Positions 5,271-55,779 of a stretch of DNA of 64,000 nucleotides are shown here, one piece after another. The notes beneath the pieces are model-generated. The model ran no database searches. It was not told the DNA's origin and worked only from the letters and a program-made list of their open reading frames with translations. A program made the translations under genes and the position numbers. This stretch comes from Fontibacillus panacisegetis (GTDB lineage: Bacteria; Bacillota; Bacilli; Paenibacillales; Paenibacillaceae), in NCBI RefSeq assembly GCF_900102215.1, contig NZ_FNBG01000001.1, forward strand, positions 372,001-436,000. Reading direction: 5' to 3'. How positions within the stretch are numbered: position 1 is the stretch's first letter; each line of letters opens with the position of its first letter.

Positions 5271-6035
5271 TCAGGTAAGCCAACCACCGTTTGGACTAAT
5301 TACCTGACCTGTAATGTAACCCGATTCTGGCAATGCCAAAAAGTATACTAAAGAAGCAATCTCCTCTGGACTGCCTAACCGACCTACAGGGATCTCTTCT
5401 TCAATAAGACGCAGCTCCTCATCGTCAAAATCAGCCATCATATCTGTTTTAACAGCTCCAGGAGCCACTGCATTTACTGTAACACCTGAGGGAGCCAATT
5501 CCTTAGCCAGCGCCTTAGAAAAGGCGTTAACTCCACCTTTGGCTGCAGAATAGATGACCTCGCAGGATGCACCGGTTATACCCCAAACAGATGACACATT
5601 GATAATACGTCCGAAACGCTGTGAAATCATGTGCGGCATGAAGATTTGTGTACACAGAAATACGCTTTTAAGATTCACATCCATCACTTCATCCCACCCG
5701 GCTTCCTGCACATCCGAAAACAGTCCGTAATGGGCGATACCGGCATTGTTAACAAGAATGTCTGGTCTCAAACCATGACTGTCCAGTTTATCCTTCATTT
5801 TAGCAATCTGATCCTTGCTGCGAAGGTCTGCCGACACCGTCATAACCCGGGCCCCCAAATCCATGCATTTTCGTGCAACTTCATTGGCCGCTTCATGCGA
5901 TTTCATATAGTGAATAATTACATTCATGCCTACTGATGCAAATCGGAGCGCAATCTGCGCTCCAATTCCCCGGCTTGCTCCGGTTACCAGTACGGTCATT
6001 TCCCCGATATTTTTCTCCATCCCATAATTTATCAT
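5271..6035 (-). CDS. ymfI: SDR-family reductase, probable EF-P 5-aminopentanone reductase (YmfI)
   Basis: Short-chain dehydrogenase with the Rossmann TGASRGIG motif, NNAG, catalytic Ser (NVSS) and the YxxxK pair in YSAAKGG; it ends NGGWLT. In Bacillus subtilis YmfI reduces the 5-aminopentanone group on Lys32 of elongation factor P to 5-aminopentanol, needed for full swarming. It lies directly behind ymfF and ymfH, as there. The start is uncertain: ATG at 6035 abuts the ymfH stop (TAAATG), but ATG at 5999 (MTVLVTGAS) begins where SDR proteins usually start. Neither has a strong ribosome binding site, so coupling to ymfH is likely. Confidence 0.85.
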   Translation of the reverse strand: MINYGMEKNIGEMTVLVTGASRGIGAQIALRFASVGMNVIIHYMKSHEAANEVARKCMDLGARVMTVSADLRSKDQIAKMKDKLDSHGLRPDILVNNAGIAHYGLFSDVQEAGWDEVMDVNLKSVFLCTQIFMPHMISQRFGRIINVSSVWGITGASCEVIYSAAKGGVNAFSKALAKELAPSGVTVNAVAPGAVKTDMMADFDDEELRLIEEEIPVGRLGSPEEIASLVYFLALPESGYITGQVISPNGGWLT

Positions 6036-52486: not shown

Positions 52487-53134
52487 CTAATACTTCGGTT
52501 TGGCGGTTAGCTTCGTAATAATGGAATTAAAATCTTCACCAATCTCAAAATTATACGTACCTGTACGAATTTTAGTGTTGACCTTCTTATCTTTTGCCCG
52601 CTTGATAAAAGCTTCCTTGTCAGTAATTACACCAGATTTCTCAAGCCCTTCAGCTATCCCAGTCAGGGTGCTGCCTGAAACGATCTTGTACTCCACAATC
52701 ACTTTCTTTGGCTTTGCCGGAGCTGCAGGAGCTGCTGGTTGTTCCGTGGACGGCGTTGTCACAGGCGATTCATTATTCACTGAAGAAACCTTTTTGTCCT
52801 GTGGGGTCTGAGGTTCTTCAGGAGTGGCAGGTTTTTTCGTTTCTTCGACTGGTTTAGTCTGGGATTCTCCTTGATTAGAAGAGGACTCAGGTTCACCATC
52901 CAGACCACCTGACTCATCAAGCGACTCCATCTTCTGCTTCCATTCTTCTTCAGTTAGAAGCTCCGTACCGTTCTCCACAACTTTTAAATCAAGTTCCTTT
53001 GCTGCATCTTCTATCTTTTGTTTCGTCCACAATTGACCTGTTTGGCTCTGGCCTAGATTCATCAATTGGAGTAATAATGCTCCTATGATCAACCCAATAC
53101 CAAGCCCCATCATAAAATGGCGATTTTTAAACAT
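52487..53134 (-). CDS. Membrane protein with MltG-like N-terminal domain only
   Basis: A 215-residue protein: a membrane helix (GLGIGLIIGALLLQLMNLG), a Ser/Glu/Pro/Lys-rich linker, and about 70 C-terminal residues (IVSGSTLTGIAEGLEKSGVI... TGTYNF) that look like the LysM-like substrate-binding part of endolytic transglycosylase MltG. The catalytic MltG/YceG domain itself is absent, so it is not expected to be an enzyme. Start codon overlaps the SwrB-like gene stop by one base. Last gene of the motility operon; no terminator before the rpsB promoter. Confidence 0.7.
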   Translation of the reverse strand: MFKNRHFMMGLGIGLIIGALLLQLMNLGQSQTGQLWTKQKIEDAAKELDLKVVENGTELLTEEEWKQKMESLDESGGLDGEPESSSNQGESQTKPVEETKKPATPEEPQTPQDKKVSSVNNESPVTTPSTEQPAAPAAPAKPKKVIVEYKIVSGSTLTGIAEGLEKSGVITDKEAFIKRAKDKKVNTKIRTGTYNFEIGEDFNSIITKLTAKPKY

Positions 53135-53745
53135 TAGGTTGCCTCCCTCTTAGCTAACTGAAGGATAAGCTGGATTTCACCTCGTTGAATCCCAATCGTT
53201 TTGGCGATCATATCTATTGATTTGCCCTTCTCGTATAGATCAAACAACTCCGGGTACCTGTCACGAACAGATTCCGGAGCTTTCGTATCCAAATCGGCAG
53301 AATGATCTGGATGAGGTTGATCAGCAGCTAATACCGCCAATTGTTCAATAACATCGCTTGAAACCGGAATTACTGCCTCTTCCACAGCATAGCTAGTTTT
53401 CATAGCTGGTGCAGCTTCCGCAATATGCTCGACAGCCTTTCCGATTGTGGTGTTATTTCGGGATACTTGCTCCACTTCTATCATACGTTTACGCAATTCT
53501 ACAATCTGTTCCTGCTGTGCCAGCTGCTTGGAGGCAAAATCCTGTTTCATTTGAGCGACGAGATCAATAAGCTCATCGTTCTCCTTTTCAATCTCTGACA
53601 TATACTGCTCCAGAGTTGTTTCAAGCTCACCAATCCCGTTATTTACAGGAGCAGTAGTAGATTTGCGACTAGGTATTAACATAGCATAAACCACCACTGC
53701 TAATCCAAGCAGAACAATGTAGAACCATGGATCTCCAAATGACAT
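53134..53745 (-). CDS. SwrB-like membrane protein (DUF6115 type)
   Basis: 203 residues: N-terminal membrane helix (WFYIVLLGLAVVVYAML), a predicted coiled coil (about 45-100, rich in Glu/Gln/Lys), a Ala-rich middle and a C-terminal helix-turn-helix-like segment (YPELFDLYEKGKSIDMIAKT). In Bacillus the protein between sigD and rpsB is SwrB, which promotes flagellar basal-body assembly; topology and place agree, sequence identity cannot be judged here. ATG at 53745 has GAGG 6 bases upstream. Confidence 0.7.
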   Translation of the reverse strand: MSFGDPWFYIVLLGLAVVVYAMLIPSRKSTTAPVNNGIGELETTLEQYMSEIEKENDELIDLVAQMKQDFASKQLAQQEQIVELRKRMIEVEQVSRNNTTIGKAVEHIAEAAPAMKTSYAVEEAVIPVSSDVIEQLAVLAADQPHPDHSADLDTKAPESVRDRYPELFDLYEKGKSIDMIAKTIGIQRGEIQLILQLAKREAT

Positions 53746-53786
53746 TGTTATCCTCACCTTTGTTGAAACATTCATTTATAGAGGTT

Positions 53787-53954
53787 GTTCAAAAAGTCAA
53801 CTTTTGATCACGAAGTAACACCAAGAAGTATATTCACATCGAATCTTGAATTCATCCGGTACTTCTGGTGCTCACGTACCCACTATGTACGCTCCGCTCC
53901 TCAGTCCCTAGATTCATCCAACCTTCTCGGTGCTGAAAATCTGACTTTTTGAAC
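53787..53954. repeat. 168-bp inverted-repeat element with internal repeats
   Basis: Perfect 13-bp inverted ends GTTCAAAAAGTCA (53787-53799) and TGACTTTTTGAAC (53942-53954). Inside, ATTCATCC...CTTCT.GGTGCT occurs twice in direct order (about 53851-53872 and 53912-53933), and CACCAAGAAGTA near the left end is complementary to both. There is no open frame of note. It sits within the motility operon, between a hydrophilic small gene and the SwrB-like gene. Looks like a non-autonomous, MITE-like or REP-like unit. Confidence 0.7.
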
Positions 53955-53971
53955 TTTCATTTAAATACTCT

Positions 53972-54292
53972 TTAAAGAGAGAAATCTATGTGCTTTCCTT
54001 TATAGGGATGCTCCGCCATTTGTTCTTTCTCCTGCTCTGCATGACTATCATCTTGTTTGGAATGTTCAGCATGTTGCTCTGAAGAACTGTTTCCATCACG
54101 TCTTACAGTAGTATTATGAGCACTCTCATCAACACCAGTGCTTCGCATGCGATCTTGTTCGTCTTTCTTGATGTTTTGAGCAGCGAGCAAGTTCTGATCG
54201 ATTTGAGGCCGTTGTTGTCCTTCATTCTGAATTCGTCCTGCCTCGCTCGTTCGCGGAATCGCGATTTGCATTTCAACGGGCTTCATATTCAT
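53972..54292 (-). CDS. Small hydrophilic protein of the motility operon
   Basis: 106 residues, very polar (Gln, Glu, Asp, His, Ser), no membrane helix, probably disordered, ending in a more hydrophobic HPYKGKHIDFSL. Not recognised. GAGGTG precedes the ATG at proper distance and the gene fits between fapA and the repeat element, so it is likely real. No function can be proposed from sequence. Confidence 0.65.
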   Translation of the reverse strand: MNMKPVEMQIAIPRTSEAGRIQNEGQQRPQIDQNLLAAQNIKKDEQDRMRSTGVDESAHNTTVRRDGNSSSEQHAEHSKQDDSHAEQEKEQMAEHPYKGKHIDFSL

Positions 54293-54327: not shown

Positions 54328-55734
54328 CTAGACGTAAGCCGACATCGAAATGTCTCCCTCACTATAATAGAAAGACATTCGAGAAATAGGCTCTTTTATA
54401 TACTTCGTATACCGACCGATCACAATTTTGGAACCACCATAGATCATTTTTAGTACATCCACACGCGCTTTTCCAGTCTCCTCAAGAGCTTTTTCGATAT
54501 CCAGCATACGTTCCTTCATATCATTAATCTCTTGGGTTTGTGATTTTTTGGTCAATCCAAGCTTGGAGCGCATCGCTACCTTATCTGGAGTCAGCTTACC
54601 GAATGAAGCTAATTGATCCAATAAAGAAAGCGCCTTCTCAGTCTTATCCAAATTAACATGAATATCCTTCACATTTTGACGTAGCTCCTGCAGCTCATTC
54701 CGCAGTTCCGGCAATACGCCAACCTCAATTGATGTGGTTGTGGACATTGGGTTACCGATGATTCTTGCAGTAACACGTTCCCCGGCCTGAATGCTGCCAC
54801 CAACAATCAATCCTTTAGATCCGCTGCAAACAACGTCTTTACCTGCACGAATGTTGGAATGCATTATACTTTGCGAGACGATGACGTCTTCCCCAGCTAC
54901 CACATTCCCATCCTGTATAAAGGAGCTCTTTACCTGATGCCCGGCCTTCACGATGCCTTTATTGTAACCGATAATGCCGCCGGAGATCTCAATAGAACCA
55001 TCAGCGTACAATTCAGCGCCTTCTACACCGCCGATTACACGAATATCACCGGCTGCAGTGATTTTAAAACCGGTCAGAACATTTCCTCTCACAACGACAG
55101 TTCCAACAAAATCAATGTTTCCAGTACTATAGTCAACATTTCCATTAATTTCGTAAATAGGGAACACATTGAGCTTATCTTTATCCGTTTGCGTAACTAA
55201 CCCATCGATAGCAGCATACAGAGCAGTCTGCTCAGGATTCAGAACTACGTTCTTGCCAATTTTAAAACGAGCTGCTTTACCTTCCTTGGCAGCGATGGTA
55301 TCACCCGTAACAGCCGTTCCCGGACGACCGGGTACAGGAGGAACAAGCTCGGCAATCAATTGTCCTCTACGTACATTATTCAGACGTGTAATGTCTTTAT
55401 AATCGACCGTCCCGTCTTCTGATTCAGCCGGCTTTTTCGTCTCATCATCAAAGCTGACTGCGTAACGAATTTTCCCATTCTCACCTTGAACCGACTCAAT
55501 CCCTATTGCAATCGGCGTTCTGCTAAAGAAATATTCTTTGGGATTTATCGCAAAGCTGTTTACGATATCCTCCTGAATTCCGTATTTAATGCCCTCTCCC
55601 CGCAAAAAATGAAGGAGAGCTTCTGCTGTACAAGAAAACTCTTCTACCTTCATTATGAATTGCAGGTAGGCTACTGTCTTGTCATCATTAAGAGTAACAC
55701 CAAGAATCTTTCCCAAATCACCCGTATGCTCCAT
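54328..55734 (-). CDS. FapA-family (DUF342) flagellar assembly protein A-like
   Basis: 468 residues from ATG at 55734 (GGGGGG box). The middle is a right-handed beta-helix/polymer-forming type region with Gly-rich turns (GNVDYSTGNIDFVGTVVVRG; ADGSIEISGGIIG), followed by a coiled coil and a C-terminal beta part, the DUF342/FapA plan. Members near motility genes are called flagellar assembly protein A; in other species FapA helps localise flagella. Located right behind sigD, where Bacillus subtilis has none. Confidence 0.8.
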   Translation of the reverse strand: MEHTGDLGKILGVTLNDDKTVAYLQFIMKVEEFSCTAEALLHFLRGEGIKYGIQEDIVNSFAINPKEYFFSRTPIAIGIESVQGENGKIRYAVSFDDETKKPAESEDGTVDYKDITRLNNVRRGQLIAELVPPVPGRPGTAVTGDTIAAKEGKAARFKIGKNVVLNPEQTALYAAIDGLVTQTDKDKLNVFPIYEINGNVDYSTGNIDFVGTVVVRGNVLTGFKITAAGDIRVIGGVEGAELYADGSIEISGGIIGYNKGIVKAGHQVKSSFIQDGNVVAGEDVIVSQSIMHSNIRAGKDVVCSGSKGLIVGGSIQAGERVTARIIGNPMSTTTSIEVGVLPELRNELQELRQNVKDIHVNLDKTEKALSLLDQLASFGKLTPDKVAMRSKLGLTKKSQTQEINDMKERMLDIEKALEETGKARVDVLKMIYGGSKIVIGRYTKYIKEPISRMSFYYSEGDISMSAYV

Positions 55735-55779
55735 TGGTCGTCCCCCCTTACAATCATTCATTTCGTAAAAGACAATTCT

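Follow-up and report, generated by a model that had tools for sequence, protein, structure and literature searches.

We propose that a 180-bp segment at positions 53781-53960 of the window (the whole stretch of 64,000 nucleotides from Fontibacillus panacisegetis analysed here) is one monomer of a non-autonomous mobile element, MITE- or BOX-like in kind, which occurs Paenibacillus-wide and in some related genera, and whose fold has been kept in the spreading lineage; we put the probability of this reading at about 0.7. The limits were set by comparison of copies and by a pair of filled and empty sites, and the element is assigned to the minus strand, which is the strand that folds and is sense to the operon. 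A preliminary description of the window had placed it at 53787-53954; the element is real, but those limits were too narrow. Its 18-bp ends are imperfect inverted repeats, GAGGTTGTTCAAAAAGTC at 53781-53798 (the 3' end in the RNA sense) and GACTTTTTGAACTTTCAT at 53943-53960 (the RNA-sense 5' end). The perfect 13-bp inverted ends noted earlier (GTTCAAAAAGTCA) are present, and the inverted arms at 53787-53811 and 53930-53954 are 25 nt long and 84% complementary. Also confirmed were two direct inner blocks (copies of ATTCATCC at 53850 and at 53912, with a CTTCT.GGTGCT-type block after each), a partial inverted copy of the inner block near the left end, and CGTAC/GTACG, which make up the terminal stem of the consensus fold (hairpin GCGTAC..GTACGT, 53874-53892, minus strand, with stem arms at 53874-53879 and 53887-53892). 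The element is flanked by a 5-bp repeat, TTATA on the left (53776-53780) and TTAAA on the right (53961-53965), which match at four of five positions. We noted that the left flank at 53767-53778 (AACATTCATTTA) resembles the right end at 53952-53963 (AACTTTCATTTA) at a spacing of 185 bp, which is the array period; this likeness may be fortuitous or may mark what is left of a second unit.

The two neighbours of the element, a 106-aa ORF and a SwrB-like gene, belong to a row of minus-strand genes that also includes a sigma factor, fapA, a weakly YceG-like gene and rpsB. The upstream ORF (53972-54292, minus strand) is conserved in 17 relatives and has no Pfam match, the downstream SwrB-like gene (53134-53775, minus strand, matching DUF6115/DUF2802 under the Pfam cut-off) probably has its true start at 53745, and fapA (54328-55761, minus strand) served as the anchor for finding the orthologous locus. 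In line with the earlier statement that the element holds no protein frame, the listed surrounding ORFs (at least 80 aa) leave it uncovered. The element may, as the preliminary description suggested, influence expression of the SwrB-like and MltG-like genes and rpsB; a scan of 53600-54150 showed no terminator-like site.

The own-genome check proposed with the preliminary description showed the element to be multicopy: a BLAST search of the genome returned 72 pieces (counted up to E 10), 52 of which form 36 clusters when 4 short pieces and 16 opposite-strand echoes are left out. A single copy conserved at this locus alone, the outcome named beforehand as telling against a mobile element, is thereby excluded. 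Matches were found in 23 of the 39 genomes searched, namely the own genome, 19 of 23 others of the same genus (the remaining 4 having none) and, among genomes from the order's other genera, 3 of 15. One relative, G008, carries at least 150 covariance-model matches, a lower bound given that all 150 candidates scored were matches. In a collection spanning 84,980 species, an exact 39-base core occurred in 97 stretches, which come from Paenibacillus, Cohnella and one metagenome-assembled contig labelled Sphingobacterium; the isolate name of the latter, Fux382, is also borne by a Paenibacillus bin. A plasmid search gave three matches among 72,556 records, all from Paenibacillus, and a phage collection gave none. 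A viral collection gave seven matches to the end pattern; six of these read as coding sequence and one, L358 (IMGVR_UViG_2848043816_000001), is a copy with modules, similar on reading to that in L157 of G008. This contig is perhaps a misfiled host stretch or a prophage. On contig L117 of the own genome (G000:C73), family members or remnants in both orientations occur in three gaps (1-252, 1163-1372 and 5389-5407); the ORFs of this contig look, by eye, like arginine biosynthesis genes. No convincing match to the element was found among the 4227 models of Rfam release 15: the sole match at locus L001 was PsrR1 (E 9.1), which overlaps the element edge by about 10 bases, and 12 further loci gave nothing matching the element up to E 1. 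A T-box leader adjoins a tandem array at L022:1233-1469 (minus strand, 67.7 bits, under the gathering score of 93). We found no description of this repeat family in the literature searched, which covers few subscription journals.

The copies behave as insertions. Read in the RNA sense, two-ended copies run 5' GTGCGTGTTCAAAAAG ... CTTTTTGAACWACCTC 3', and among 119 unique two-ended copies, free of overlaps and duplicates, 48 have a perfect 5-bp flanking repeat (7.1 expected by shuffling) and 32 have a repeat matching at four of five positions (25.1 by shuffling). The match per column is 70-81% inside the five flanking columns and 23-50% beyond them, and the perfect repeats are mostly TWWWA, with TATAA the commonest (14 of 48). 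fapA was matched in 27 other genomes, and of these, 17 same-genus relatives were read at the locus of the window copy; 16 have a short spacer only and no element. In the seventeenth, G003, TTATA flanks a mini-element at this locus, where the near-identical G008 is uninterrupted. Conversely, a 295-bp copy at a TATAA site is present in G008 and absent from G003, while one insertion is common to both (L385 in G008, L037 in G003). Scattered copies with common ends, 5-bp flanking repeats and element-free sites in relatives uphold the earlier proposal of a non-autonomous mobile unit. Consequently for the host, Paenibacillus operons, including this motility operon, can harbour a sizeable folded insertion that varies between species.

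The large RNA hairpin anticipated by the preliminary description is predicted both by folding of the window copy and by a consensus structure. Folding of the window copy exceeds chance: z is -4.47 for the minus strand, whose stability none of 200 shuffles equalled, and -3.80 for the plus strand (2 of 200). In an alignment of 76 copies (74 distinct) from several genera, fitted to a covariance model, 94.3% of 3178 cells hold standard pairs, both partners vary in 30 of the 45 pairs, and the covariation score of 0.244 compares with 0.025-0.051 when partners are slid and was reached by 0 of 500 shuffles, with the caveat that kinship among sequences can by itself beat every shuffle and that alignment cells are not independent. 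Two MAFFT alignments, made without fitting to the model, gave consensus energies of -42.96 versus -20.03 on the opposite strand (31 copies) and -34.11 versus -13.94 (16 copies, other genera included). The strand preference is also seen in the excess of G-U over A-C cells, 284 versus 30, or 144 versus 30 when mostly-G-U pairs are left out. One strand, here the operon-sense strand, has a conserved, covarying fold.

Conservation of the fold differed between changes shared among copies and changes private to one. In 94 model-fitted copies of G008, which are related, so that p values are guides, private pair states kept pairing in 22 cases and broke it in 42; the figures were 14 kept and 17 broken for states found in two or three copies, and 18 kept and 9 broken for states found in at least four (p = 0.006 versus private). 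Private substitutions did not distinguish paired from unpaired columns (42 in 90 versus 32 in 88), whereas letters common to at least four copies avoid paired columns (37 versus 82 in unpaired columns, p = 0.0005). Family-wide, pair states in at most two copies comprise 24 G-U and 20 A-C, and commoner states 120 G-U and 10 A-C (by subtraction). The corresponding G-U:A-C ratios within G008 alone were 11:9 for private states, 9:9 for two or three copies and 6:1 for at least four, which is not significant (p = 0.20). Because pair states shared by several copies in G008 tend to keep pairing and private ones do not, our results suggest that the fold is needed by the spreading lineage and not by every resident copy.

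The family varies in size around this fold. By reading, in G008 and elsewhere, extra hairpin modules follow CAGCACCGA, GGAGCGGAGC and GAGCACC, and an additional segment of about 112 nt follows ACTTCGTG. At the other extreme, internally deleted mini-elements retain little beyond the ends, the smallest being about 32-40 bp. The own genome further holds 11 tandem arrays with the RNA-sense layout [incomplete unit]-[complete unit]n. Over all loci, which were picked for element matches and in some cases for a tandem look and are hence not a random sample, we counted 37 arrays of 1.17-3.95 units with 94-100% internal likeness. Their 5' boundary is scattered and their 3' end retained: about 34 arrays begin with an incomplete unit, L155 begins with a complete one, and L421 and L461 begin in spacer, and the 3'-end pattern stands at the last unit in 35 of 37. 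By reading, one of these 35 (L020) is a chance pattern match in which the arm is lost; the L022 array has a diverged end and the L021 array runs into a contig end. Internal junctions are identical or nearly so within an array and often unlike its terminal end, and around 29 arrays no flanking repeat was found above the shuffled level. A pattern check of junction polarity, which picks up either strand, counted 46 junctions with a further 3' end after them and 12 without; on reading, the 12 were taken for opposite-strand views, and none of our claims depends on this count. Orthologous arrays differ, with three complete units versus one in one case and a first unit shortened by in-place deletion elsewhere.

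We also searched for an enzyme that might move the element. A search covering DDE_Tnp_1_6, DDE_Tnp_1 and DDE_Tnp_1_4 yielded no transposase with these ends in 27 PF13751, 30 PF01609 and 12 PF13701 loci (from 6, 6 and 10 genomes, respectively), several own-genome copies being cut by contig ends. End pairs 450-4500 bp apart were sought in 354 loci (1.62 Mb) and two were found. One, L308, was considered as an autonomous partner and rejected, as it consists of two elements around an ordinary gene; in the other, L136, the longest stop-to-stop frame is 191 aa. An insertion sequence in G021 with ends GGGGCTGTCC..AAGTC bears a loose likeness to the left end of the element. In the own genome, 11 contig ends (L162, L165, L167, L170, L173, L175, L177, L179, L181, L182 and L184) carry a DDE_Tnp_1_6 gene, a repeated insertion sequence that probably breaks the assembly; its end, GGGTATCTCAACAGCCTG (four loci), is unlike that of the element. 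Neither RVT_1 matches (in 7 of 10 copy-rich versus 5 of 7 copy-poor genomes) nor Y1_Tnp matches (5 of 10 versus 2 of 7) track copy number, and G003, G008, G011, G013 and G022 have no Y1_Tnp match. G018, with zero element matches, has 33 RVT_1 matches, many equal in score.

The constant 5-bp length of the repeat and the symmetry of its site point to a transposase or integrase that acts on the two ends, and it is in this sense that we infer the kind of enzyme. In the mechanism we propose, a putative enzyme would recognise both ends in trans, and insertion at AT-rich sites, approximately C-TWWWA-G, would produce the 5-bp duplication. The interior fold, comprising an arm closed by the ends, a terminal hairpin and a side hairpin, would be kept by selection in spreading copies, and resident copies would afterwards decay near-neutrally. 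We infer that the fold serves mobility; given the constraint on it, the simplest account would be that a transcript or single strand of the folded polarity takes part in copying. The interior would be dispensable if the ends-only mini-elements moved as such, and the minis of about 32-40 bp are one reason to weigh an ordinary DDE-type MITE, in which the ends alone matter and the fold reflects founder inheritance plus gene conversion, or early weeding of harmful transcripts. This is a serious possibility, though we think it unlikely. The fixed 5-bp repeat and symmetrical AT-rich site fit it, as does the neutral look of single copies (private G-U 12 versus A-C 11), but filler would not be expected to show compensatory changes in 30 of 45 pairs, as seen across families, or so marked a strand asymmetry. 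Weeding of read-through transcripts would not clearly favour one strand either, since neighbouring genes lie in both orientations: by crude ORF calls, the flanking genes of 71 copies were same/same in 32, opposite/opposite in 17, opposite/same in 14 and same/opposite in 7, with 1 copy inside an ORF.

The tandem arrays raise another alternative, namely copying of a circular RNA or single-stranded DNA from the 3' end, SINE-like or rolling-circle-like, which would leave multimers short of parts of the 5'-most unit. The 37 internally alike arrays with a scattered 5' boundary and a kept 3' end, the agreement of junctions within an array that are often unlike the terminal end, and the 29 tested arrays without a flanking repeat speak for it. 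However, orthologous arrays change in place, and for this reason a rolling-circle or reverse-transcription origin of the arrays was demoted to a rival; with 5-bp repeats on complete monomers and RVT_1 and Y1_Tnp genes that do not track copy number, we regard it as improbable. A conserved host regulatory RNA, functional where it sits, could account for the strand-specific covarying fold, for the element lying within a transcribed operon here, and for the same-sense downstream gene in 46 of 70 copies, but it appears highly improbable in view of the lack of conservation at the locus studied here, private mutations that do not spare pairing, and hundreds of scattered sites with 4 of 23 same-genus relatives lacking a match. 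A further reading is a bacterial SINE-like element that would spread via RNA or single-stranded DNA, folded and of one fixed polarity, recognised in trans by a putative enzyme. We hold this reading doubtful; if true, it would explain why a non-coding repeat keeps its strand-specific covarying fold in the spreading lineage and not in resident copies, and why the 5' unit goes missing from tandem forms whose 3' end stays. Bacterial MITEs are usually regarded as ends plus filler. This family offers numerous copies in each genome, close relatives that differ in single insertions, and a fold open to disruption and repair in a laboratory strain, so that one can test whether the interior of a repeat of this kind may be required for spreading.

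The element resembles several known systems to different degrees. It is short and non-coding, with inverted ends, a target-site duplication, dispersed copies and element-free sites in relatives, as expected of a MITE (a class reviewed in PMC10969869). The alternative in the preliminary description, a REP-type unit, was not sustained: the REP/BIME unit is a 20-40 bp palindrome according to PMC3733652, whereas the element here is 180 bp long with flanking repeats, and genes for the partner Y1 transposase (RAYT) do not track copy number (5 of 10 copy-rich and 2 of 7 copy-poor genomes). Correia elements and ERIC are structured non-autonomous repeats able to alter transcripts, and have other hosts and other ends than the element here. 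Both are named in PMC3049150. The bcr1-bcr3 repeats of the Bacillus cereus group are, according to PMC6542083 and PMC3446304, high-copy, MITE-like and often in transcripts; compared by description, their TTTAT motif recalls the TWWWA site here, whereas the plasmid matches of our element are to Paenibacillus records only. Closest by description, along with bcr1-bcr3, is BOX of Streptococcus pneumoniae, which PMC3049150 presents as modular small interspersed repeats of variable size, with inverted ends that pair together in the predicted transcript, target duplications and an uncertain mover, all features that recur here. The two differ in host and in the link to ISSpn2 proposed for BOX, no such link having been found here, and the present element carries its modules at several points of one fold and forms tandem arrays of whole units.
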